From positions 1-28,329 of IMG/VR virus record IMGVR_UViG_3300012920_000192: a stretch of 28,329 nt of DNA. One strand, given 5' to 3'. The position numbers were made by a program, and so were the translations under genes. The notes under the pieces are model-generated. The model was not told the origin of the DNA and did no database searches. It was given only the letters and a program-made list of their open reading frames with translations. The DNA is from a virus. This document shows, one piece after another, positions 15,801 to 26,230 of the stretch (position 1 is its first letter; each line of letters opens with the position of its first letter).

Positions 15801-15973
15801 AAGACACAACAGTCACACCTGCTGAAGACGATACAACATTTAAAGAATACAAATATTCAGCAAGTGATATACAAGACTTTACAAGTTTTCAAATTAAAAT
15901 AGTATTAACAGGTTCAGTATCATCATATCCACCTATTATAAAAGATATGAGAGCAATAGCATTGGCAGTATAA
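9842..15973 (+). CDS. Giant virion structural protein, 2043 aa (tail/baseplate periphery)
   Basis: The N-terminus (Phe-Asn-Leu-Ser-Pro-Tyr-Tyr-Asp-Asp-Phe, then Arg-Pro-x4-Gln-Ala-Arg-Glu-Leu-Thr-Gln-Ser-Gln) matches the large DUF4815-type proteins of marine T4-like phages. Between about residues 90 and 650 lie Gly-Glu-x-Ile-Thr-Gly-Gly-Thr-Ser beta repeats and a unit with Ser-Thr-Gly-His-Asn-Leu. Residues about 1050-1150 are a conserved helical core (Arg-Asp-Ile-Gly-Arg-Leu-Glu-Lys-Arg-Ile). A Leu-Lys-Pro-Asn-Thr-Arg segment lies near 1400, and beta-sandwich-like domains with His-Pro-Asn-His-Gly-Met-His follow. It starts ten bases after gp8 behind a GAGGGA ribosome-binding site. Function at the baseplate rim or in fibre attachment is inferred from size, repeats and position. 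Confidence 0.85.
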   Translation: MPSPTDFNLSPYYDDFTESKKFHRILFRPSFAVQARELTQSQTQLQNQIERVSDHLFDKGAMIIPGEIGYDLEYYAVKLTSLASGNTLAQFTAGTILTGGSSGVKAEIVNTAATDGTDPDTLFVKYRDSGTSRTATAFTHGETITGTNSASVSLSAVVATCHTGAAAEVQEGVYYINGFHVQVSNQTIILDKYTNTPSYRVGLTVAESFVTPNDDSSLNDNAAGSSNVNAPGAHRFKIDLTLAKKTLTSTEDSNFIELLRLSNGILQNRVRTTDYAVLEETFARRTFDESGNYTINPFDIDVREHLKNTGSSNADIVRGIFTSGNGGDSTKLAIGMSPGKAYVKGFEIEKLATSFVEVDKARDFDTENAFQTRFDVGNFVNVTNIHGQPDTTFVSGETEAFKRVNLYQEATSSRGTENAGTESSINTIGRAKSRGFQYVSGTATSNIFSSASLTSAIYRHYLFDINLFTHLNITSAQSFTTGELITGGTSGATGTLESISTTETTAVSGISTASPGVCTSTGHNLKEGQQIKFSAISAANNSTAMTTSEIFTVRNPGTNTFELFESDGTTATNITSFSSAGNAVHGVVILSSVNGDFVAGETITGGTSSNTAVIQSDAVGFKGVTSFDFPQVKQIGMAGSPTYTADTALDATNGSNLTLTGTLSIANSGAAVTGFNTRFTEELVIGDSISFTTDGGTSLTRIVEAIVSNTSLTLSAAVGGSDVSTKTIATRRRTKIQSPEKNISIFKLPYENIKTLKTTSNGGVTDTSYSARRQTVINLSGGSETITAGTNEIFPSLAEGDYTVSVMSASGSAVVGDVLSLSGNNHAGGTIFTLGGSPTGKQLTLDFGSNYGSAKLKVMFTVNKSSTAANSKTKTLNSNQQVQVSTLAAVTKQGGISLGKADIFKLNAVYMAADFSTNATSSNTNITSRFELDNGQRDNFYDIGRIKLKTGEITPTGRILIDFDYFTHGAGDYFDVDSYSGVVDYEDIPSYTSDTTGEVYQLRDSLDFRPRVGASSTINSGGQDRKFQTTDSALDTEASTVNVVKFESDVSTDHEFYLQRVDKIFIDKDGNFKVLKGASSLTPEIPDDLDNAMHLYTLFIPAYTLDIAEVGIEAVDNRRYTMRDIGRLEKRIENVEYYTQLSLLESAAQSLQIQDADGFDRFKNGFIVDNFTGHGIGDAGNLDYKVSMDYAKGEMRPTFHEDAIQLVERDDDGTAIVDADRTASNYQKTGDLITLPYTEATLIDQPYASKSVNVNPFGIFTWIGSIALTPTNDEWKETERAPELVINNDDGTWDTLVKNSGNPNLTSVEIGTVWNEWQNHWTGVSNSNSTETYRRRHGHGWAVMQRDIQTTTRTGTRTRVGIRQVLVPKTVTQNIGDRIISVAFVPFIRSRTISFSATRLKPNTRVYPYFDSDSVSAYITPSGGSAGDAVITDSNGAVSGTFAIPDPKVDANPRWRTGQRVFRLTSSSTNDLTSAPETAANAEYIARGIIETVQNTIISTRTAGVEFRATNETEAVTQTSVQRGASRQVGYHDPLAETFMIDDEGGVFLTSIDVYFSSKDANIPVTLQLRNTVNGYPGQQILPFAEKTLNPSAVNTSTDGTTATTFTFDSPVYVQENTEYAFVLMANSTDYNVYVARLGETALDSDRTISQQPYAGVFFKSQNGVTWTADQNEDIKFKIKRAEFSNVTGTITLTNDTLGSRTLKNNPLRTKNASKEITVFHPNHGMHGTSNNVTISGVASGTYNGIAHTDINGTYTSIKDVTLDSYVITSGSSSNATSTGDVGGTTVVATQNRTYDVLNLSGVQTMQLPGTSINHYIRPTTGKSIHGSESEFTLTSSANKLSVVNNDNIYFTGPNAVMSEINETNEMSGNKSFWNILEFSTTNTKLSPVLDTQRMSAFVISNRLNNPTVSNTPDFVDDTANTGTSSSAVYLTKSINLENTSTALDVRLSQNVRSSSGVEVYFRTSGPDEARNIEDLNWTPFNGDGSEDTTVTPAEDDTTFKEYKYSASDIQDFTSFQIKIVLTGSVSSYPPIIKDMRAIALAV

Positions 15974-16203
15974 TGGCAAGATTAAAAGTAGAAGGATATC
16001 AAAGTTTAATTAGAGATACTAATTCTAATGGTATTGTTAATACAAATACAACAGAATACAGTATATATATGGCAAGAGCCAGAGCGAGAGAGAAACAAGG
16101 TGATGAAATTAGAAACGCTGTAAAAGAAATAAATAATTTAAAATCTGAATTAAGAGAAATTAAAACGAGTATTAGAGAATTAGTAGGAGCAATAAGTAAG
16201 TAA
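15973..16203 (+). CDS. Small helical virion-cluster protein, 76 aa
   Basis: Its ATG overlaps the stop of the 2043-aa gene (TAATG at 15971-15975). The first 30 residues (Leu-Lys-Val-Glu-Gly-Tyr-x-Ser-Leu-Ile-Arg-Asp-Thr-Asn) resemble short proteins following the same giant gene in marine T4-like phages. Residues 33-76 form a long charged helix with heptad-like Ile/Leu spacing, so a coiled coil is likely. No enzyme motif is present. Tight coupling suggests it acts with the preceding protein, perhaps as an assembly partner; that is inference. Confidence 0.72.
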   Translation: MARLKVEGYQSLIRDTNSNGIVNTNTTEYSIYMARARAREKQGDEIRNAVKEINNLKSELREIKTSIRELVGAISK

Positions 16204-16832: not shown

Positions 16833-16840
16833 TATAAATA
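16833..16840 (+). promoter_or_regulatory. Downstream late promoter TATAAATA of a tandem pair
   Basis: A second exact octamer lies 72 bases after the first. It is followed by an AAAGGA ribosome-binding site and ATG 16866. The octamer is framed by a direct AACTATA repeat. It is the better-placed promoter for the downstream small genes and adhesin. Confidence 0.72.
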
Positions 16841-16865: not shown

Positions 16866-17234
16866 ATGGCCAACGATTTTAAAAGATTTGCTAAACCCAA
16901 TGTAGGAACATCAACTGGTGCATCTGGTGATGCATTATATTCAGTACCTGCAGGTGCGGGTTCAAGTGCATTAGAGTCAATTGTAATTGGTATATCTATC
17001 TGTAATAAAAATTCCGCTGAAAGAACAGTAGGAATATTTTTAGATAATGAAGATGGATCAAATGATGCTTATATTTGTAATGGATTAAAAGTACCAGGAA
17101 ATACTACAGTTGAAGTTATGCAAGGAAACAAATTAATTCTTCAAAATGATGGATCAAACGCAGATGTATTAAGAGCTGAAGCTTCGGCAGGTTCTTCAAT
17201 TGATGTTGTTGTATCCGTTTTAGAAGACGTATAA
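16866..17234 (+). CDS. Small virion structural protein, 122 aa
   Basis: The protein begins Asp-Phe-Lys-Arg-Phe-Ala-Lys-Pro-Asn-Val-Gly-Thr-Ser and continues as an all-beta domain, with an Ile-Gly-Ile-Ser-Ile-Cys-Asn-Lys strand near 41-48, a Gly-Asn-Lys-Leu-Ile-Leu segment near 87-92 and a closing Val-Val-Ser-Val-Leu-Glu strand. I recall this pattern from a widespread family of small structural proteins in marine T4-like phages, with no defined role. AAAGGA lies close upstream of the ATG, and a late promoter precedes it. It heads the run that ends in the glycine-rich adhesin, so tip or fibre attachment is a reasonable guess. Confidence 0.75.
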   Translation: MANDFKRFAKPNVGTSTGASGDALYSVPAGAGSSALESIVIGISICNKNSAERTVGIFLDNEDGSNDAYICNGLKVPGNTTVEVMQGNKLILQNDGSNADVLRAEASAGSSIDVVVSVLEDV

Positions 17235-17249
17235 TAAAAAGAGTTAAAA

Positions 17250-17492
17250 ATGGTTAGATACATTCAGTCTAAAGATAGACCAACAGAGGTTAATGTTAGA
17301 ACAGCAACTGGTGATGGGTCAACAACAGGTTTTACAGTAACACAAGGTATGACAGTGAATAAAGTTATTGTTTCAATTAACGGGTTGATGCAGAAACCTA
17401 CTACTGATTATTCAATATCTAGTACAACATTAACATTTGGTACTGCACCTGATGCATCTGACTCAATTGTAATAAGGGAGCTACCAGTTTAG
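17250..17492 (+). CDS. Stand-alone fibre C-terminal domain, 80 aa
   Basis: After a short N-terminus the whole protein is one small beta domain with Ala-Thr-Gly-Asp-Gly-Ser-Thr-x-Gly-Phe-Thr, Asn-Gly, Pro-Thr-x-Asp-Tyr and Ile-Ser-Ser-Thr-Thr-Leu-Thr-Phe-x-Thr-Ala-Pro. It aligns without large gaps to the last 65 residues of the fibre at 5928-6971, with about half the positions identical by eye, and both end Arg-x-Leu-Pro-x. The separately encoded domain may bind another fibre or cap a shaft. It lies 15 bases after the previous gene and nine bases before the adhesin gene, pointing to co-expression. Confidence 0.78.
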   Translation: MVRYIQSKDRPTEVNVRTATGDGSTTGFTVTQGMTVNKVIVSINGLMQKPTTDYSISSTTLTFGTAPDASDSIVIRELPV

Positions 17493-17500
17493 AATAAGAT

Positions 17501-18967
17501 ATGGCAAAAATTAGACAATCAAATATAGATAAAAGTATTTTAAATGCTCAAACAGAATTATCAGCTCAAGCTGCAGATGACGATACATTTTTAGTTTTTG
17601 ATACAAGTGCAGGCGCACTTAAAAAAATTCAAAGATCAAATATAAAATCAAATCCCGCTAAAATAACAAGTGTTTCTCCAACATCTGTTGCTGAAGGAGA
17701 CGGATCAGGTAATCATACATTTACACTTTCTGGATCTGGTTATGTAGCAGGAACTACAGCAAATTTAATTAATGCATCAGGTGCAACAGTTAACTTTGAT
17801 ACAACGACAATTGACTCTTTAACACAAATTACTGGTGTGATAGCAAAATCTAGTTTACCTGGTAGCGGTGAACCTTATGATGTTAGAGTAAATAATTCTG
17901 ATGGTAATCAAACAATAACAGATCAAATTAATGTTAACCAAACACCATCTTGGACAACAAGTGCAGGAAGTTTAGGTACCTTTTCAGAACAAACTACAAT
18001 TAGTACAATTACAGTAGCTGCAACTGATCCTGAATCAGGAACAATAACATTTTCAGTAACTTCAGGTTCATTACCTGGAGGTTTATCTTTAAATTCTTCT
18101 AATGGTCAAATTACAGGTACTTTAAGTACAAATATTACAGGAACAACTACTACTAACTTTACAATAACTGCATCAGACGGAACTAATAGTGTAGGAAGAG
18201 CCTTTTCAATAACGGAAGTTCCAGCAGGAACTGAAACATTTACATCATCAGGTACTTTTTCTGTACCAACAGGTATTACTTCAGTTGATGTATTACTCGT
18301 TGCTGGAGGAGGTGGTGGTGGTACATCTGCTGGAGGTGGCGGAGGTGCTGGTGGATTAATTTATAAACCAGGTTTTACAGTCACACCTGGTGGTTCAATT
18401 CCAGTCACAGTTGGTGATGGTGGTGCGAATGCTGGACCTGGAGCATCTGGACAAGATTCTGTATTTAGTACATTAACTGCTAAAGGTGGTGGTGGAGGTG
18501 GAGGACCTAGAAACCAAGCTGGACAACCTGGTGGATCAGGTGGTGGTGCTGGTTGTGGTGGACCAACTGGTGGTAGTGGTAATCAAAGTACACAACCAGG
18601 TGATTCTGGAAACTTTGGTTTTGGTAATCCTGGCGGGAACGCTGGAAACCCACCTAATTGGGGCGCTGGTGGTGGCGGTGGTGCCGGTAATGCGGGTAAC
18701 TCTGGTGGACCTCATAACGCAGGTAATGGTGGTAATGGTAAATCATATTCAATATCAGGAACATCAGTGACATATGGTGGTGGTGGTGGAGCTGTGACCG
18801 ATCACAATATGGGTCCAGGTGGATCTGGTGGAAATGGTGGTGGCGGAAATAGGAATAGTTCAGGAACTGCCAATCGTGGTGGCGGAGGTGGTTCTGGTAA
18901 TGGCCAAGATGGTAATATGGGCGGTGGTGGCTCAGGCGGTAAAGGTATTGTAATTGTTGATTACTAA
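17501..18967 (+). CDS. Modular glycine-rich tail-tip adhesin, 488 aa
   Basis: Four parts can be read. Residues 1-50 are a docking segment (Ile-Arg-Gln-Ser-Asn-Ile-Asp-Lys-Ser-Ile-Leu). Residues about 53-145 resemble an IPT/TIG Ig-like domain (Ile-Thr-Ser-Val-Ser-Pro-Thr-Ser). Residues about 148-240 resemble a cadherin/He_PIG Ig-like domain (Leu-Pro-Gly-Gly-Leu-Ser-Leu-Asn, then Thr-Ala-Ser-Asp-Gly). Residues 243-488 are a glycine-rich domain opening with Phe-Thr-Ser-Ser-Gly-Thr-Phe-Ser-Val-Pro and a hydrophobic strand before the first poly-Gly. Such glycine-rich domains occur on phage tips and adhesins and can pack as polyglycine helices exposing variable loops. Receptor binding is inferred. 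Trp occurs only twice, once in a Pro-Pro-Asn-Trp-Gly loop. An enzyme cassette follows. Confidence 0.82.
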   Translation: MAKIRQSNIDKSILNAQTELSAQAADDDTFLVFDTSAGALKKIQRSNIKSNPAKITSVSPTSVAEGDGSGNHTFTLSGSGYVAGTTANLINASGATVNFDTTTIDSLTQITGVIAKSSLPGSGEPYDVRVNNSDGNQTITDQINVNQTPSWTTSAGSLGTFSEQTTISTITVAATDPESGTITFSVTSGSLPGGLSLNSSNGQITGTLSTNITGTTTTNFTITASDGTNSVGRAFSITEVPAGTETFTSSGTFSVPTGITSVDVLLVAGGGGGGTSAGGGGGAGGLIYKPGFTVTPGGSIPVTVGDGGANAGPGASGQDSVFSTLTAKGGGGGGGPRNQAGQPGGSGGGAGCGGPTGGSGNQSTQPGDSGNFGFGNPGGNAGNPPNWGAGGGGGAGNAGNSGGPHNAGNGGNGKSYSISGTSVTYGGGGGAVTDHNMGPGGSGGNGGGGNRNSSGTANRGGGGGSGNGQDGNMGGGGSGGKGIVIVDY

Positions 18968-18987
18968 ATAATACTAAAATATTATTT
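18966..18987 (+). terminator. AT-only hairpin after the adhesin gene, possible weak terminator
   Basis: AAATAATA (18966-18973) and TATTATTT (18980-18987) are perfect inverted repeats around a six-base loop, followed by a short T-rich stretch. There is no G-C pair, so the stem would be weak. It could reduce read-through into the enzyme cassette or be chance in AT-rich DNA. Confidence 0.25.
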
Positions 18988-19008
18988 TATTTAATTAAAG
19001 GAGTTGAA

Positions 19009-19473
19009 ATGACTGATAAAGAAGCAAAATATGATGGCGTAGATGAATTTGGAAATCCTAATTATTTAGCCTCAGAAGATAAAGGTGATATAGTATTAAA
19101 TACACTAAAACCTGGCGAAGTTCTAACAGATCAAGGAACCATAGTTGAAGAAAATTACGACTATGGAAGTATTACAGACCACGATAAAAGAGTCGTAAAA
19201 GAAATCATAAAACTATTAGAAGAACGAGCAAATGTACCTTGTAAAATGTTTGCTAAAGAATTAGCAATAAAGTTTGATATATCAAAAATACCAGAAATGA
19301 AATATGAAGATTCTAAATGGCACGAGTTAACTAAAGATTTTAGATTAGGTGAAGCAATCCAAGGGTTTAGACAAGACACTAGAGACGGTGAACAGATTAG
19401 AATACCACATATGGGTTTCTCAGCAGATTTAGAAGAACTTGAAAAATTAGCAGAACATTTATCTAAAAAATAG
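19009..19473 (+). CDS. Hypothetical protein, 154 aa, first gene of the enzyme cassette
   Basis: I do not recognise this acidic, soluble protein. Residues 1-50 look disordered, with Asp, Glu, Asn and Gly and a Tyr-Asp-Gly-Val-Asp-Glu-Phe-Gly-Asn-Pro-Asn-Tyr segment. From about 55 it becomes helical: Lys-Arg-Val-Val-Lys-Glu-Ile-Ile-Lys-Leu-Leu-Glu-Glu-Arg, then a second helix with the only Cys, and a final amphipathic helix (about 138-154). There is no membrane segment, signal peptide or catalytic motif. It has the best ribosome-binding site of the region, AAAGGAG at 18997-19003, five bases before the ATG, so it is probably well expressed. It may be an adaptor or a separate virion protein. Confidence 0.75.
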   Translation: MTDKEAKYDGVDEFGNPNYLASEDKGDIVLNTLKPGEVLTDQGTIVEENYDYGSITDHDKRVVKEIIKLLEERANVPCKMFAKELAIKFDISKIPEMKYEDSKWHELTKDFRLGEAIQGFRQDTRDGEQIRIPHMGFSADLEELEKLAEHLSKK

Positions 19474-19488
19474 TTTAAAATATTTTTT
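19465..19488 (+). terminator. A/T hairpin with T tract, possible attenuator
   Basis: AAAAAATA (19465-19472) pairs perfectly with TATTTTTT (19481-19488) around an eight-base loop, overlapping the TAG of the preceding gene. The 3' arm is itself a T tract. The stem has no G-C pair, so terminator strength is doubtful. It sits just before the first oxygenase gene, which lacks a visible ribosome-binding site. Confidence 0.25.
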
Positions 19489-19492
19489 GTTA

Positions 19493-20140
19493 ATGTTTTA
19501 TACAAATGTCCCTACAGTAAATACGGAAACTGGCGATAATATAATTTATCCATTTAGTCCTCCTATTTTTCAAACAGAAGTTGATAGCAACTTTACAAAT
19601 CAATTAATTGTAGAAGGTCGTAAACTTACAAAAGAAGAAGACGATTGGAATTATCAATTAGCAGGTAATTTGAAATATGGACGTTCATATCGTTTTAAAG
19701 AATCATTTAAATTAAGATCAGAAACATATTTAAAAATCTATGTAAAAAGATTTTGTGATGGAATAGATAAGTTATATGGTAATTCGTTAATGACAGATAA
19801 AATTACTCCATTAAAATTAGATGAATTGTGGATTAATTTTTCTCAAAAACACGATTTTAATCCACCACATGCACATAGTGGTGTTTTATCTTTTGTGATA
19901 TTTTGTAAGGTACCACCAGAAATATTTAAAACACAAGCAGATAGTAATAATCAAAGTGCAGGAAAAATTACTTTTTCATATGGTGAAAATATAACTAGTC
20001 TAATGGGTAATGATTATCCTATTGAGCCTTATGAAAATTTAATGTTTATATTTCCAGCACAATTAAAACATTATGTTTCACCGTATTGGGTTGATGCAGA
20101 GCGTATTAGTGTATCTGGTAATTTCAGCCTATCTAAATAA
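19493..20140 (+). CDS. Predicted 2-oxoglutarate/Fe(II) oxygenase A (2OG-FeII_Oxy_5-like), 215 aa
   Basis: The C-terminal half fits a small double-stranded beta-helix oxygenase of the 2OG-FeII_Oxy_5/TIGR02466 type. It has Leu-Trp-Ile-Asn-Phe (112-116), then Pro-Pro-His-Ala-His-Ser-Gly (H126, H128), a hydrophobic strand, Phe-Ile-Phe-Pro-Ala-x-Leu-Lys-His (H193) and Glu-Arg-Ile-Ser-Val-Ser-Gly-Asn-Phe (R204, the likely 2-oxoglutarate-binding Arg). The usual His-x-Asp is His-x-His here. The N-terminal half has the Ile-Tyr-Pro-Phe-Ser-Pro-Pro-Ile-Phe opening typical of the family. I choose ATG 19493; an in-frame TTG at 19487 lies in a T tract. No ribosome-binding site is obvious. Substrate unknown. 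Confidence 0.78.
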   Translation: MFYTNVPTVNTETGDNIIYPFSPPIFQTEVDSNFTNQLIVEGRKLTKEEDDWNYQLAGNLKYGRSYRFKESFKLRSETYLKIYVKRFCDGIDKLYGNSLMTDKITPLKLDELWINFSQKHDFNPPHAHSGVLSFVIFCKVPPEIFKTQADSNNQSAGKITFSYGENITSLMGNDYPIEPYENLMFIFPAQLKHYVSPYWVDAERISVSGNFSLSK

Positions 20141-20148
20141 TAAGTAAA

Positions 20149-20910
20149 ATGATGATACACAATTCATATTATTATATTGAATCTGCCTTGACACCTGATC
20201 AATGTCAAAAAATTATTGATTTAGGTTTATCTCAAATTGATAGTGTTAAAAAAGCAGGCGGGTCTACTGTTGCAACTACATTTGATGGTGGTCACAAAGA
20301 AGCTTTAGAAAAATTAGGTGAACCCGTTTCTCCTCAGGCAGATAAAACCGTAGAAGATTTAAGAAAAGAAAAAGAAAAGAAAAGTTATATTAGAGATAGT
20401 GAAGTATCTTGGTTAAATCATCAATGGTTATATGATTTAGTATATCCTTTTTTACATAAGGCAAATAATGATTCTGGTTGGAAATATCAATTTGATTACA
20501 GCGAGACTTTTCAATTTACCAAATATGGACCTAATCAATTTTATGGTTGGCACGCAGATGGCGAGAGTTGTCACCATGGAAAGTATAAAAGATATATTCC
20601 AGGTATTACTAAAACAGGGCCAGATGGTGAAATGCCTAAAGGTTATACTACAGTTCCTGATATGGTAGGAAAAATTCGTAAACTATCTATGACAATTAAT
20701 TTAAATAAGCCTGGTGAATATGAAGGTGGAAATTTAAAGTTTGATTTTGGTCCACATAATCAAGGAAAACGTTTCCACGAATGTACAGAAATAAGACCTC
20801 AAGGATCAATCATTATATTTCCGTCATTTGTATATCATCAGGTAACTCCTGTGACTAAAGGAACAAGATACTCTCTAGTTTTATGGACACTAGGAAGACC
20901 ATTTGTGTAG
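20149..20910 (+). CDS. Predicted 2-oxoglutarate/Fe(II) oxygenase B (prolyl-hydroxylase / PKHD type), 253 aa
   Basis: This has the clearest complete catalytic set of the cassette: Trp-His-Ala-Asp (H135, D137), distal H230 in Phe-Pro-Ser-Phe-Val-Tyr-His-Gln-Val-Thr-Pro-Val, and R240 in Gly-Thr-Arg-Tyr-Ser-Leu-Val-Leu-Trp. This matches the prolyl 4-hydroxylase/PKHD superfamily, whose members hydroxylate protein or small-molecule substrates using O2, Fe(II) and 2-oxoglutarate. Tyr-Glu-Gly-Gly-Asn-Leu (191-196) is the usual turn before the second half of the barrel. A charged insert (about 55-80) and a Gly/Lys-rich loop (143-170) may contact substrate. Two adjacent ATG codons (20149, 20152) are possible starts. 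It begins eight bases after oxygenase A. Confidence 0.88.
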   Translation: MMIHNSYYYIESALTPDQCQKIIDLGLSQIDSVKKAGGSTVATTFDGGHKEALEKLGEPVSPQADKTVEDLRKEKEKKSYIRDSEVSWLNHQWLYDLVYPFLHKANNDSGWKYQFDYSETFQFTKYGPNQFYGWHADGESCHHGKYKRYIPGITKTGPDGEMPKGYTTVPDMVGKIRKLSMTINLNKPGEYEGGNLKFDFGPHNQGKRFHECTEIRPQGSIIIFPSFVYHQVTPVTKGTRYSLVLWTLGRPFV

Positions 20911-20939
20911 ATACTAAATAAGATAAAAAGGAGTATAAA

Positions 20940-21650
20940 ATGAGTGCGGCAAAATTTTTTAAAGAACATAGTTGGGTTAAGATAGATAATTATATTGACC
21001 AAAGTATGGCTAATTTATTTTATCATCATATTCAATTAGAAACTGCTAGATTAAGTTATTACGAAGAAAATGATATTAGAGTTGATATGGCATATAATGG
21101 TACCTTTACTGACGAACAAGCTCCAGGTGACTTTAGTAAATATGGTGATCCTATCTTTGATGCTTTTTTAAGTTTAGGTTTAGGAAAGATGCAAGATTTA
21201 ACTGGATTAAAATTAGTTCCTACATATTCTTATCATAGACTTTATACAAATGGTACAGAGTTAAAAAGACATAAAGATAGACCAAGTTGTGAAATTTCAA
21301 CTACACTTTGTTTAGGTTATGATACTTCAAACCTTGAAGATAAAAACTGGAATTGGCCTATGTATGTAAAAGAAAAAAATGGTGTAGAAACTCCAGTCTA
21401 TATGAAACCTGGTGATATGGTAATATATCGTGGTTGTGAGTTAGAACATTGGAGAGAGCCATTTATAGGTAATCATCACGCTCAAGTATTTTTACATTAT
21501 AATGAAGCTGGTGGTAAATACGATATTCCTTTTGATGGTAGACCTCTTTTAGGTATGCCTGTATTAGATCAAGTTGTAAGAAATGATGAAGAATTAAGCG
21601 AATATGAAAAACATAATACAACTAATAATGCTAGAAAAGTAATAGATTAA
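20940..21650 (+). CDS. Predicted 2-oxoglutarate/Fe(II) oxygenase C, 236 aa
   Basis: The likely iron site is Leu-Lys-Arg-His-Lys-Asp-Arg-Pro (H111, D113) and Glu-Leu-Glu-His-Trp-Arg-Glu-Pro-Phe (H170), within a barrel that includes Lys-Pro-Gly-Asp-Met-Val-Ile-Tyr-Arg-Gly (156-165). The distal His is followed by Asn-His-His-Ala-Gln-Val-Phe-Leu-His-Tyr, so the usual Arg about ten residues on is not in the standard place; R172 or another residue may bind the cosubstrate. The C-terminal 45 residues are charged and may be a tail outside the barrel. An AAGGAG ribosome-binding site (20928-20933) lies six bases before the ATG, the strongest site among the oxygenases. An ACTAAATA upstream resembles a degenerate late octamer. 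Confidence 0.84.
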   Translation: MSAAKFFKEHSWVKIDNYIDQSMANLFYHHIQLETARLSYYEENDIRVDMAYNGTFTDEQAPGDFSKYGDPIFDAFLSLGLGKMQDLTGLKLVPTYSYHRLYTNGTELKRHKDRPSCEISTTLCLGYDTSNLEDKNWNWPMYVKEKNGVETPVYMKPGDMVIYRGCELEHWREPFIGNHHAQVFLHYNEAGGKYDIPFDGRPLLGMPVLDQVVRNDEELSEYEKHNTTNNARKVID

Positions 21651-21653
21651 TAA

Positions 21654-22334
21654 ATGACTTGGAATATAAAACTTTTAAAAGATAATCCTTTATACCCTGC
21701 TTTAGTTATTGATAATTGGTATACTCCTAATGAAGAAAAGGCTGTATGGAAAGAGTTAGATTTTTATAGTGCAACACCTAAAAAATATTTAGAAAAGGCA
21801 GAAGATACAATTGTTGCTCGTGATAAAGATGGCTCGCCTAGAAGTACAGCATATAGATTTTATTTAGAAACATTTTATAATAATAAATTAATATCTCCAA
21901 TTTATAATTGTATGAAAAAACAACGATCACCAGAATTTAGAGATATTATGGGTAATTTTATGCCTTATGCTCGTAGTTTTTTATCTACTACAGAAGATAC
22001 ATCTTTAATATCTTATTATGAGGATAACGATCATTATAAACCTCACTATGATTCTTTTAGTTGGACTTGTTTAATATGGATGGTAAGAGAGCCTAAATTA
22101 TTTGATGGTGGTGATTTTTTATTAAATGAACCCAATTATGAAATTAAATTAAAAAATAATAGAATGGTTATGTTTCCTAGTTGTTTATTACATAGTGTCA
22201 CCCCTTTAAAATTTCATACTCAACCAGAAGAAGCGGGATACGGAAAATATACTATTACACATTTTTACTTTGCAATTCCTTTAGGTGATGGAAGTGACTT
22301 GTCGTTAGGAAACAATAAACTACCTAAATTATGA
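21654..22334 (+). CDS. Predicted 2-oxoglutarate/Fe(II) oxygenase D, 226 aa
   Basis: The sequence Asp-His-Tyr-Lys-Pro-His-Tyr-Asp (H131, D133) gives the His-x-Asp motif. Phe-Asp-Gly-Gly-Asp-Phe is the following turn, and Met-Phe-Pro-Ser-Cys-Leu-Leu-His-Ser-Val-Thr-Pro supplies the distal H180. Where most relatives have Arg before the last strand, this protein has Gly-Lys-Tyr-Thr-Ile (K198), so a lysine may anchor 2-oxoglutarate, as in collagen prolyl hydroxylases. It begins three bases after oxygenase C, and its TGA overlaps the ATG of the halogenase (ATGA at 22331-22334), which argues for coupled translation of the two enzymes. Substrate unknown. Confidence 0.84.
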   Translation: MTWNIKLLKDNPLYPALVIDNWYTPNEEKAVWKELDFYSATPKKYLEKAEDTIVARDKDGSPRSTAYRFYLETFYNNKLISPIYNCMKKQRSPEFRDIMGNFMPYARSFLSTTEDTSLISYYEDNDHYKPHYDSFSWTCLIWMVREPKLFDGGDFLLNEPNYEIKLKNNRMVMFPSCLLHSVTPLKFHTQPEEAGYGKYTITHFYFAIPLGDGSDLSLGNNKLPKL

Positions 22335-23797
22335 AAACAATAACAATAGTTGGTGGAGGTACTGCCGGATATATTACTGCGTTAATTTTAAAAACTAGAT
22401 ACGGAAGTAATATTGATATACAACTAGTTAAGTCAGATAAAATTGGTATTATAGGAGTTGGTGAGGGTTCAACCGAGCACTGGAAAGAGTTTATGGATTT
22501 TGTCGGTATTGATTTTAAAGAATTGATTACCGAATGTGACGCAACTTTAAAGTGTGGTATTATGTTTAAAAATTGGACAGATAATGATTTTTTACATAAT
22601 GTAAATGAATTAAAAAACTTTAAACACGGACAACATTTAGCAAGTTATTTAAAGTTAATGAATGAAGACTGTGATGTAAAAGAATTGAATAATCCTTGGT
22701 TTTGGGAAAACAAAGTTGGTAGAGAATTTTTATTAAGTGAATTACACAATTGTCCTACTAATCAATATCACTTTAACACATTTAAGTTAAATGAATTTTT
22801 AAATAAAAAATCAATAGAAAAAGGTTTAAGAGTTGTTGATGATGAGATAGTTGATGTAGAATTAAATAATAAAGGCGAAATATCAAATTTAAAAGGTGAA
22901 AAGAATAATTACAATACAGACTTTTATATTGATTGTACAGGATTTAAAAGATTATTAATTTCTAAATTAGGCGCAAAGTGGAAATCATATAGTAAGTATT
23001 TAAAAATGAAAGAAGCAATTGCCTTTCCAACAAATGGTACAGATGAATATAATGTTTATACAATTGCACGAGCTATGAAATATGGTTGGGCTTGGCATAT
23101 TCCCACTTATGGTCGTTGGGGTAATGGTTATATTTTTGATAGTGATTACATAAGTGCCGATGACGCAAAACAAGAAATAGAAGAAACACTAGGACATAAA
23201 ATAGATATAGGAAAACACGTTAAGTTTGATCCTGGTTGTTTAGATAAACCTTGGATTAAAAATTGTTTAGCAGTAGGATTAAGTGCTAACTTTGTAGAAC
23301 CATTAGAGGCAACATCAATAGGCACATCTATAAATCAAATGTTTTTGTTCATACATATGTTTGATAACTATAATCAAAAGATAATAGATGATTATAATTA
23401 TAAAATGGAATTGATAATGAACAATATTAGAGATTTTATTGTTTTACATTATATTACAAAAAGAGATGACACTAGTTTTTGGAAAGATTTAAAAACTATG
23501 AAGATACCTGATACATTAAGAGAGAATATAGAAAGATGGCAAACTAGATTACCTATTAGAGATGATTTTAGAGAAACAAATTATTACTTGTTTTTAGAAC
23601 ATAACTATTCTCAAATATTATATGCTTTAGATTTACTTAACAAAGAAAATATAAAAATCTTATATAATTCTTTTAATGAAGAACATAGAAAACATTTTGA
23701 TATAGGAATGAACGAATATAAAAACAATTTAAATGTTCCTCAAGTAAAACATAAAACATATTTAAAAGCAATAAGAGCGATGTATGCCACAGTTTAA
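22331..23797 (+). CDS. Flavin-dependent halogenase, tryptophan-halogenase family, 488 aa
   Basis: These enzymes use FADH2, O2 and chloride or bromide to halogenate aromatic or other electron-rich substrates. The FAD-binding Gly-Gly-Gly-Thr-Ala-Gly is at 8-13 and a second flavin-contact segment, Gly-Val-Gly-Glu-Gly-Ser-Thr, at 42-48. Lys74, in a Thr-Leu-Lys-Cys-Gly-Ile-Met-Phe-Lys-Asn-Trp context, corresponds to catalytic Lys79 of PrnA. The halogenase-specific WxWxIP is intact at 253-258, and Phe-Val-Glu-Pro-Leu-Glu-Ala-Thr-Ser-Ile (321-330) matches the active-site glutamate region, with Ala and Ser where PrnA has Ser and Gly. The length is near PrnA (538). No flavin reductase is visible, so the host would supply FADH2. 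It overlaps genes on both sides. Tryptophan as substrate is not implied. Confidence 0.92.
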   Translation: MKTITIVGGGTAGYITALILKTRYGSNIDIQLVKSDKIGIIGVGEGSTEHWKEFMDFVGIDFKELITECDATLKCGIMFKNWTDNDFLHNVNELKNFKHGQHLASYLKLMNEDCDVKELNNPWFWENKVGREFLLSELHNCPTNQYHFNTFKLNEFLNKKSIEKGLRVVDDEIVDVELNNKGEISNLKGEKNNYNTDFYIDCTGFKRLLISKLGAKWKSYSKYLKMKEAIAFPTNGTDEYNVYTIARAMKYGWAWHIPTYGRWGNGYIFDSDYISADDAKQEIEETLGHKIDIGKHVKFDPGCLDKPWIKNCLAVGLSANFVEPLEATSIGTSINQMFLFIHMFDNYNQKIIDDYNYKMELIMNNIRDFIVLHYITKRDDTSFWKDLKTMKIPDTLRENIERWQTRLPIRDDFRETNYYLFLEHNYSQILYALDLLNKENIKILYNSFNEEHRKHFDIGMNEYKNNLNVPQVKHKTYLKAIRAMYATV

Positions 23798-24410
23798 AGT
23801 TCGTAATTTATGGCCAACTCCTGTTTATGAAGCAGAGATACCTGTTGAACAAAAATGGAAAAATATAATAACAAATTTTGATTATGAGAGAACACCTATT
23901 GGTAATAGTGACATAACAAAAGATCGTTATATCTTTGAAAACAATTTAGAATTAAAAGATTTAGAAGAAAAAATTAAAAATCATTGTGAGATATTTGTAA
24001 AAAAATATCTACATATAAAAAACAATGTAGAATTTTATTTACAAAATTCTTGGGTTAATGTACATAATCCTAATGATGAATCACAGGTTCATTATCACGG
24101 AAATTCTTTGATAAGTGGAGTGTATTATCCAATCTTACCTGATGGCTCTGGTAATATAACATTTCATAAAAATCATTTACTTACTAATCTATTTCACCCT
24201 TGTATTAAAATAGAGTATGAAGAACACGATAATATTAATTGTGATTTTTGTACTGTAGATATAAAAGAAGGATCAATAGTTCTTTTTCCATCACATTTGG
24301 AACATAGCGTAGAAAGAAACAAAACTAGTGAAAAAAGATATTCTATCGCATTTAACTTTTTTGTAAGAGGAACATTGGGTAAAAAAGAATTTATATTAGA
24401 CTTAAAATAA
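23784..24410 (+). CDS. Predicted 2-oxoglutarate/Fe(II) oxygenase E (2OG-FeII_Oxy_5-like), 208 aa
   Basis: The N-terminus (Asn-Leu-Trp-Pro-Thr-Pro-Val-Tyr, 8-15) and the core match the 2OG-FeII_Oxy_5/TIGR02466 family: Ser-Trp-Val-Asn-Val (89-93), Val-His-Tyr-His-Gly-Asn (H103, H105), Ser-Gly-Val-Tyr-Tyr (111-115), Leu-Phe-Pro-Ser-His-Leu-Glu-His-Ser-Val (H174) and Lys-Arg-Tyr-Ser-Ile-Ala-Phe-Asn (R185). As in oxygenase A, the motif is His-x-His rather than His-x-Asp. It overlaps the halogenase by 14 bases with its start inside that gene, so it is probably translated by coupling. The two family members flank the other four enzyme genes, perhaps reflecting an old duplication or stepwise growth of the cassette. 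Confidence 0.85.
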   Translation: MPQFKVRNLWPTPVYEAEIPVEQKWKNIITNFDYERTPIGNSDITKDRYIFENNLELKDLEEKIKNHCEIFVKKYLHIKNNVEFYLQNSWVNVHNPNDESQVHYHGNSLISGVYYPILPDGSGNITFHKNHLLTNLFHPCIKIEYEEHDNINCDFCTVDIKEGSIVLFPSHLEHSVERNKTSEKRYSIAFNFFVRGTLGKKEFILDLK

Positions 24411-24418
24411 CATAAATA
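24411..24418 (+). promoter_or_regulatory. Late-promoter-like octamer CATAAATA after the enzyme cassette
   Basis: This is a one-base variant of the late octamer, the same as at 134-141, placed directly after the stop of oxygenase E. The predicted start near 24424 leaves a leader with AGGTGA (24426-24431) seven bases before ATG 24439. It would restart late transcription for the fibre genes downstream. Confidence 0.55.
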
Positions 24419-26222: not shown

Positions 26223-26230
26223 TATAAATA
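26223..26230 (+). promoter_or_regulatory. Late promoter TATAAATA before the last fibre gene
   Basis: An exact late octamer lies 11 bases after the previous stop. The predicted start near 26236 falls inside AAGAGGAG (26234-26241), leaving GAGGAG as the ribosome-binding site six bases before ATG 26248. The leader would be only about 12 bases. Confidence 0.72.

Follow-up and report, generated by a model that had tools for sequence, protein, structure and literature searches.

Which molecules do the 2-oxoglutarate (2OG) oxygenases and flavin halogenases of phages modify, and could the glycine-rich tail proteins encoded beside them be substrates? This question is raised by the 28,329-base IMG/VR virus record IMGVR_UViG_3300012920_000192 (positions 1 to 28,329, hereafter the window), which comes from a marine phage and has T4-like genes. 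At 17501-18967 of its plus strand lies an open reading frame (ORF) for a modular glycine-rich protein, a probable tail-tip adhesin, in a neighbourhood of five 2OG-oxygenase-like genes and one flavin halogenase gene; the adhesin gene is upstream of the halogenase gene on the same strand. The original prediction, made from the sequence of the window, had named this protein as the nearest candidate substrate of prolyl-hydroxylase-like and halogenase activities. We observed the gene order, its recurrence in other phages, a correlation of enzyme type with composition and, in a structural model, a tail-tip fold. The proposal is supported by the recurrent linkage and partly by the composition, and its chemistry is putative. 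The recurrent pairing suggests that the enzymes decorate the tip, without proving so, and we put the probability of the whole mechanism, in which the tip is made late in infection and it or its sibling tail proteins are modified by the neighbouring oxygenases and halogenase, at about 0.45.

The protein, which starts with ATG and has 488 amino acids, is very probably a tail-tip adhesin, as first proposed, because its glycine-rich domain matches two phage tail-tip proteins in modelled fold, with Z scores of 16.5-16.8. Pfam places a Gly_rich_2 domain (PF21722) at residues 248-488 (18242-18964; E 1.9e-21, 77.5 bits against a cut-off of 24.3, positions 1-225 of the 226 of the profile), and 96 of the 248 residues at 241-488 are Gly, in agreement with the predicted glycine-rich part of about 245 residues. 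The AlphaFold model of the domain, a predicted monomer built from 51 sequences, has a predicted local distance difference test score (pLDDT) of 92.6 and a predicted template modelling score (pTM) of 0.91. It aligns, out of 248 residues, over 190 with the Bxb1 tail-tip protein (PDB 9D93 chain Qb; Z 16.8, root-mean-square deviation 3.1) and over 182 with the Pam3 fibre gp24 (PDB 7YPX, 7YFW; Z 16.5, deviation 2.8), and the Foldseek template modelling scores to these proteins are about 0.5. The domain is thus predicted to share with them a fold that combines a part similar to tumour necrosis factor (TNF) with a glycine-rich part. The next fold match was the glycine-rich domain of ALK (Z 8.5); the ALK/LTK domain is an animal receptor domain whose arrangement is related by model over about 130 residues, with Z of at most 8.5, near the range that the tool calls middling. 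In BFVD, 245 entries match at E of at most 0.001, and the named entries among the 50 listed are mostly viral glycine-rich domain-containing proteins. Among PHROGs, the adhesin matches two tail families and two unknown ones, one of the latter at E 2e-56. The adhesin is a member of an already known kind of protein.

The Pam3 paper, in the part of it covered, depicts a TNF-like base with a glycine-rich tip; the stem of this tip is conserved, whereas its distal ends vary and are suggested to bind the receptor. Its authors liken their fibre to S16 gp38. In the gp38 adhesins of T-even-type phages (S16, PP01), according to the portion of that literature covered, glycine-rich strands bear the receptor loops. 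The initial comparison with gp38 is sound as an analogy on this ground; it does not extend to membership of the family, since a Pfam scan of the adhesin up to E 0.001 returned Gly_rich_2 and He_PIG only and no GP38 (PF05268), and S16 gp38 (PDB 6F45) was not among the listed fold matches of the domain. The window adhesin differs from the Pam3 fibre in having an N-terminus with immunoglobulin (Ig)-like domains in place of an alpha-helical shaft; its gene lies beside oxygenase and halogenase genes. Residues 1-50 (17501-17650), expected to form a docking segment, have low pLDDT and no family match in Pfam, and may serve in docking. Two Ig-like domains had been predicted. The second was found as He_PIG (PF05345) at residues 157-238 (17969-18214, E 9.5e-10), in a part that is modelled poorly (pLDDT below 50 over residues 146-236 of the full-length model). 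The first, at about residues 51-146 (17651-17938), has no Pfam match; the full-length model gives it beta-strands at modest confidence, and the Ig-fold hits of that model are weak, with Foldseek E values from about 0.03 upwards, so that the domain is possibly Ig-like. Parts of the adhesin within residues 22-187 are 31-43% identical to proteins from 11 phages of Pelagibacter, Methylophilales and Roseobacter. As claimed, the protein has only two Trp, W151 and W387, the latter inside the loop P384-P-N-W-G388 (residues 384-388, 18650-18664).

Glycine-rich ORFs are linked with the enzymes in other contigs as well. Altogether 360 loci were assembled, and each test refers to its named set. An ORF in the contig sets was called glycine-rich if it encoded at least 150 amino acids and reached 33% Gly or more over some stretch of 100 residues; thresholds of 30% and 40% were also run. 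We compared the best 80 of 598 matches to a halogenase alignment with 80 loci holding the baseplate gene gp6 and with 50 random loci taken with an arbitrary 16-mer. Glycine-rich ORFs were present in 30 of the 80 halogenase loci, in none of the 80 gp6 loci and in two of the 50 random loci (0.38, 0.00 and 0.04 ORFs per 10 kb, respectively); at 40% Gly the numbers were 25, zero and one, and when halogenases were grouped at 85% identity or more, 25 of 66 groups were linked. As the gp6 loci are shorter than the halogenase loci, we also counted by length class, obtaining 7/24, 7/19 and 16/37 for halogenase loci, 0/55, 0/18 and 0/7 for gp6 loci and 0/21, 0/21 and 2/8 for random loci. The layout of the window is one of several: glycine-rich and halogenase genes are interleaved on opposite strands in L009, L010 and L011, and three glycine-rich genes lie downstream on the opposite strand in L024, L026, L027 and L030. 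A halogenase tree with 108 rows, of which 45 are linked, shows 23 changes of the linked label, the unlinked rows including short contigs; the tree had one halogenase per locus, and L012, L017 and loci without a halogenase ORF of more than 380 amino acids were left out.

The reverse comparison started from glycine-rich ORFs. A search of genomes with the PF21722 profile missed the glycine-rich ORFs in the L009 record, and its negatives were not used as counts; a search with an alignment of glycine-rich sequences gave 11 loci, and a degenerate DNA pattern for VVAGGGGGG was used instead. This yielded at least 120 loci chosen regardless of enzymes, of which 112 had a glycine-rich ORF. A 2OG-type gene was found in 36 of these, a halogenase in four and either in 38, against 3/80 gp6 loci and 0/50 random loci (Fisher p 9.8e-12). 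The independent set of 11 loci contained six with a 2OG gene and one with a halogenase. In 52 of 68 loci with both, the glycine-rich gene preceded the enzyme gene on the same strand; it followed the enzyme gene in three loci and lay on the opposite strand in 13, near-copies being kept. The arrangement of tip and oxygenase or halogenase genes is recurrent, and is likely to be functional.

To compare composition, we kept a single glycine-rich segment from each 70%-identity cluster within a group, which left 55 of 76 segments from halogenase loci, 56 of 58 from loci with 2OG genes only and 116 of 121 from loci with neither; L002, L007 and L008, near-copies of L001, were excluded. The median fraction of Pro among non-Gly residues was 0.082, 0.098 and 0.038, respectively. 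Each glycine-rich protein was then paired with its nearest relative lacking the enzyme. Pro was higher beside PF13640-type (prolyl-hydroxylase-like) enzymes in 71 of 82 pairs (p 1.9e-12) and split 7 to 7 in the 14 pairs where only other 2OG-type genes occur. It was also higher in halogenase loci than in enzyme-free relatives (44/55 pairs), an excess that we ascribe to the oxygenases present in most of these loci, since in a linear model with guanine-plus-cytosine (GC) content and 2OG genes the term for Pro was positive for 2OG (t 5.1) and slightly negative for the halogenase (t -1.9). The aromatic residues (Trp, Tyr, His and Phe taken together) were more frequent in the halogenase-linked member of 50 of 55 pairs (p 1.9e-9); singly, the pairs divided 46 to 7 for His, 42 to 13 for Tyr and 34 to 17 for Trp. 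Both effects were retained in GC-matched pairs (35/44 and 42/50) and, because enzyme-free loci may be merely shortened contigs, with controls required to have 2.5 kb on each side (40/49 and 33/44). The most enriched context of Pro was Pro-Gly, at 21.8 versus 5.85 per 1000 residues, which is also the context of collagen prolyl 4-hydroxylase. In the window, Pro makes up 15 of the 152 non-Gly residues at 241-488, and seven of these 15 precede Gly.

Cultured phages show similar layouts. We inspected 19 named phage records, two of them unannotated, around their halogenases, and nine had a glycine-rich ORF nearby in the stretch shown at 30% Gly, a threshold to which we relaxed the definition once the isolate proteins had been viewed; the halogenase test was repeated at 30, 33 and 40%. 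In Syn10 (L361, 6826-13587) two halogenases lie just downstream of three glycine-rich ORFs, with one small ORF between, and are followed by a run of 2OG-type genes. In P-RSM6, P-TIM40, S-WAM1 and S-SZBM1 the halogenases come after glycine-rich "tail fiber assembly" genes, here too with a single ORF intervening, and in S-SRM01 the halogenase is directly between a tail-fibre gene and an "adhesin tip complex" gene. The Actinomycetia phage DSL-LC01 (L378, 1-14630) has halogenase and glycosyltransferase genes after two collagen-like genes, one ORF intervening, and farther off a large gene with a glycine-rich stretch annotated as ALK. The statistical test covered 14 genomes; isolates were picked from the 60 listed of 66 records, and S-PM2, Syn1, S-SCSM2R, AG-345-O18 and MT835646, viewed locally only, stood outside it. 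Within 4 kb of a glycine-rich ORF were 12 of 21 halogenases at 30% Gly (1.57 expected) and 10 of 21 at 33% (1.41 expected), values reached in none of 20,000 rotations, although these p-values overstate independence, as several genomes share one layout. The 2OG genes were only mildly nearer than by chance, with 33 of 139 within 8 kb (18 expected, p 0.007). The halogenase frame of S-PM2 (L366, 11995-13470) has an in-frame TAA in record NC_006820.

The same phages bear on the view that the enzymes act on small molecules, producing a halogenated or hydroxylated metabolite, protecting the host or affecting 2OG and nitrogen signalling, with the adhesin an unmodified chance neighbour. Several halogenases are far from any glycine-rich ORF (in P-SSM2, S-B64, S-SSM7 and S-MbCM6, and one of three each in S-RIM44 and P-TIM40), and such distant halogenases may be metabolic. 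Action on small molecules is also the published view of these enzymes in the literature covered: in the parts of the papers available, a halogenated metabolite or capsule decoration was proposed for a cyanophage cluster (PMC7824862), antibiotic protection was suggested as speculative (PMC2984593), and 2OG with nitrogen control was proposed (PMC3037559). The open-access literature covered names no substrate for the phage halogenases and 2OG oxygenases. The recurrent linkage to glycine-rich tail ORFs relative to the controls argues against the metabolic view, as does the correlation of composition with enzyme type, within the limits set by the other residues and the background described below, and the enzymes of the window sit in an apparent late structural unit. 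Taken together, we consider this explanation rather unlikely.

In HTVC008M one glycine-rich ORF lies near four oxygenases, between baseplate and head-tail genes, and the halogenase is about 9 kb from it. That four oxygenases accompany only one glycine-rich ORF would fit enzymes whose target is a different protein, either a sibling from the tail or baseplate or one on the host surface, the glycine-rich tip being merely the nearest marker of the tail module; the region of the window around the adhesin has further late structural-looking genes that could be such targets. The Pro signal, in contrast, resides in the glycine-rich segments, the Pro fraction of the other ORFs of the same loci being equal across the three groups (0.042, 0.042 and 0.043), and we regard a different protein target as quite improbable.

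A number of results weigh against modification of the tip. In the DNA available per locus, 74 of the 112 glycine-rich loci lack such an enzyme. The 2OG-type gene is within three genes of the glycine-rich ORF in 36/36 loci, but shuffling of labels in short loci gives nearly the same distance (1.86 vs 2.51 genes), and direct adjacency of glycine-rich and enzyme genes shows no excess over shuffling (13 vs 13.5; 12 vs 15.3), so that adjacency within loci was rejected as support. At 40% Gly only three of the 21 isolate halogenases are within 4 kb (0.64 expected, reached in 778 of 20,000 rotations), and the isolate 2OG genes at this distance number 15 of 139 (9.6 expected, p 0.11). As to composition, halogenase-linked proteins differ from enzyme-free ones also in Thr, Arg, Gln, Glu, Lys and Asp (p 1e-3 to 1e-11), and 2OG-only proteins also in Cys and Lys; the difference is thus not specific to the predicted target residues. 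Aromatic residues are higher in the other ORFs of enzyme-bearing loci too (0.145 and 0.142 vs 0.103). After correction for this background, halogenase-linked proteins exceed enzyme-free ones in His only (p 2.6e-4), with Trp no higher (p 0.8) and Tyr lower (p 0.025), although they still exceed 2OG-only proteins in His, Trp and Tyr. The emphasis that had been laid on Trp is therefore weak, His being raised most clearly. The Pro difference is small and not significant in pairs of at least 50% identity (7/11, p 0.21; 4/5, p 0.31), and GC content explains part of it, because enzyme-free proteins at GC 0.34-0.40 also have a Pro fraction of 0.083 (n=22). In a tree-based test, which had only five or six supported independent pairs as few branches of the glycine-rich tree are supported, Pro gave 0.8 pairs the same way, 0.1 the other way and 5.1 without difference, and aromatic residues 1.1, 0.4 and 3.5; the crossed controls were alike (1.8, 0.0 and 3.2 for Pro with halogenase; 1.3, 0.6 and 4.1 for aromatic residues with the PF13640 type). 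Finally, the glycine-rich domain of the window itself is not rich in aromatic residues (13 of 152 non-Gly residues). As it is rich in Pro, the proline step is better supported in the window than the halogen step.

Several of these results could be explained by hitchhiking: the tail-fibre region would be a hotspot for cargo, where tips and enzymes gather without acting on each other and composition follows lineage. The missing excess of direct adjacency, the tree pairs mostly without difference on few supported branches, the many residues besides Pro and the aromatic ones that differ between groups, and the scatter of 2OG genes through isolate genomes all agree with this. Yet loci of the baseplate gene gp6 seldom hold either partner (a glycine-rich ORF in none, a 2OG gene in three and a halogenase in one of 80), Pro tracks the prolyl-hydroxylase-like type and aromatic residues track the halogenase among nearest relatives, and of the same-strand pairs 52 have the glycine-rich gene first and 3 have it second. 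Hitchhiking is in our view unlikely, and we continue to prefer modification of the tip by its neighbours.

The receptor-binding loops were expected to be hypervariable. We compared the window with the close relatives L001 and L002, which differ from each other by 2 nt in the adhesin gene and were treated as a single comparison. Identity to them is 93.4% for the adhesin and 99.4% for the halogenase. The ratio of non-synonymous (pN) to synonymous (pS) differences of the adhesin, 0.61, is the highest among 18 compared genes save ORF 16866 (1.24 on five substitutions). Amino-acid changes are in excess within residues 51-146 (pN 0.072, pS 0.048), while the glycine-rich domain has pN 0.026 and pS 0.058, with both Trp, 14 of its 15 Pro and the PPNWG loop unchanged. 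Hypervariability of the loops thus mostly did not appear and was rejected as support: the only cluster in the domain is at residues 360-366 (18578-18598), with four of the 12 amino-acid differences of residues 241-488, adjoining residues 366-369, the sole segment of the domain model with pLDDT below 50. General loop hypervariability of the kind expected of T-even-type gp38 proteins was thus not seen in this one comparison. W387 was rejected as a special site, the aligned position being aromatic in 58% of halogenase-linked, 38% of 2OG-only and 45% of enzyme-free rows. Trp or His occupies it in 16/52, 2/72 and 7/129 rows, respectively; the rows are domains and not independent. Elsewhere in the window, a 76-codon ORF at 15973-16203 has the top pN of the compared genes (0.044) and gaps of three residues in all between the close relatives.

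The adhesin gene had been described as directly upstream of the modification enzymes. The oxygenase genes start at 19487, and an ORF of 154 codons (19009-19473) intervenes; it has no match at the Pfam and PHROGs thresholds and one chance-level PDB hit (E 0.78). A role as a Pam3 gp25-like chaperone was considered for it and rejected, the position fitting and a sequence match being absent. All enzyme genes are on the plus strand. The first and the last (19487-20140 and 23784-24410) match the 2OG-Fe(II) oxygenase family PF13759, and those at 20149-20910 and 21654-22334 match PF13640, all four also having PHROGs matches. The ORF at 20149-20910 (PHROG 61; 51.1 bits against 27 for PF13640) has H135, D137, H230 and R240, and among 110 relatives H135 is present in 110, D/E137 in 110, H230 in 101 and R/K240 in 107. 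It resembles the PKHD-type hydroxylases PiuC and Sbal_3634 weakly (E 1e-4), and is prolyl-hydroxylase-like by family and motif, with putative activity on proline. Phage 2OG oxygenases including PHROG 61 resemble the human prolyl hydroxylase EGLN3 in fold, according to the portion covered of PMC12774648. The ORF at 20940-21650, labelled ferrochelatase in PHROGs (phrog_2954), has neither a Pfam nor a PDB match; since the HxD motif is present in 69/69 relatives and the distal His in 68/69, it is probably a further 2OG-type oxygenase, and the label looks wrong. The ORFs at 21654-22334 and 23784-24410 also match phrog_274, "DNA endonuclease V", a name carried as well by short ORFs near cyanophage halogenases; this label may be spreading to oxygenases.

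The flavin-dependent halogenase (22331-23797) matches the tryptophan-halogenase family PF04820 with 345.5 bits against 21. Its GGGTAG motif is conserved, as are K74 (173/176 relatives) and E326 (171/176), which we take to be the catalytic residues after PrnA. It matches the structure of VirX1 (PDB 6QGM, E 9.1e-45), presumably a Syn10 protein, for which we know of no natural substrate. VirX1 and the cyanophage flavin halogenases are distant kin, the window halogenase being 27.7% identical to its TBLASTN match in Syn10. In the close relatives L007 (17943-19412) and L008 (15602-17071) a second halogenase is encoded about 8 kb downstream of the first, which would be past the end of the window.

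Transcription may provide a further connection. The sequence TATAAATA, which we take to be the T4 late promoter box, has eight copies in the window, all of them on the plus strand, a number ordinary in itself (6.0 expected). Six of the eight copies are, however, within 45 bp upstream of a listed start (at 1014, 5897, 8334, 16833, 26223 and 27252), where rotation predicts 0.36 (p 0.00085). The copy at 16833-16840 precedes ORF 16866; the next exact copy is only at 26223, and the gaps between genes from 16866 to 24410 are at most 41 bp, so that the adhesin and the enzymes likely share one late transcription unit. A near-match, CATAAATA, is at 24411. Other T4-like genes of the window, putatively PAAR, gp25, gp6 and neck gp13, were labelled from sequence and gene order.

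We propose that the adhesin is the tip with which the virion binds its receptor: a TNF-like base would carry a lattice of glycine-rich strands, with the distal turns towards the host. Its expression would be late in infection, from a transcription unit shared with the 2OG oxygenases and the flavin halogenase, and these enzymes would probably modify the adhesin, or sibling proteins of the tail, in the course of assembly. Prolines, mainly in Pro-Gly, would be the target of the PF13640-type enzyme and exposed aromatic residues that of the halogenase, and the modified tip may be more rigid, more stable or better at receptor binding. Co-transcription, location in the virion and every chemical step are what we infer here; modification of the adhesin is plausible. 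More generally, tailed phages could carry a widespread cassette that tailors their receptor-binding tips by Pro-Gly hydroxylation and by aromatic chlorination, bromination or iodination, and the adhesins could be the missing natural substrates for a large number of phage halogenases, among them VirX1, as well as for some of the 2OG oxygenases; we hold this extension tentatively and as doubtful.

There is a precedent in giant viruses, whose collagen-modifying hydroxylases hydroxylate the viruses' own Pro/Gly-rich surface proteins; their hosts are eukaryotic and their substrates collagens, which sets them apart from the phages considered here. In the open-access literature covered, we recognised no paper that links the phage enzymes to modification of tail fibres or tail tips, which does not prove that none exists. 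Marine phages commonly encode halogenases and 2OG oxygenases, and their genes are classed as metabolic. If the proposal is true, biochemical work on these enzymes may have used an unsuitable type of substrate. The idea is testable in cultured phages of like layout, namely Syn10, P-RSM6, P-TIM40, S-WAM1, S-SZBM1 and S-RIM44, and for the oxygenases in HTVC008M. Host recognition by such phages would then have a chemical layer that is invisible to the genome sequence alone.

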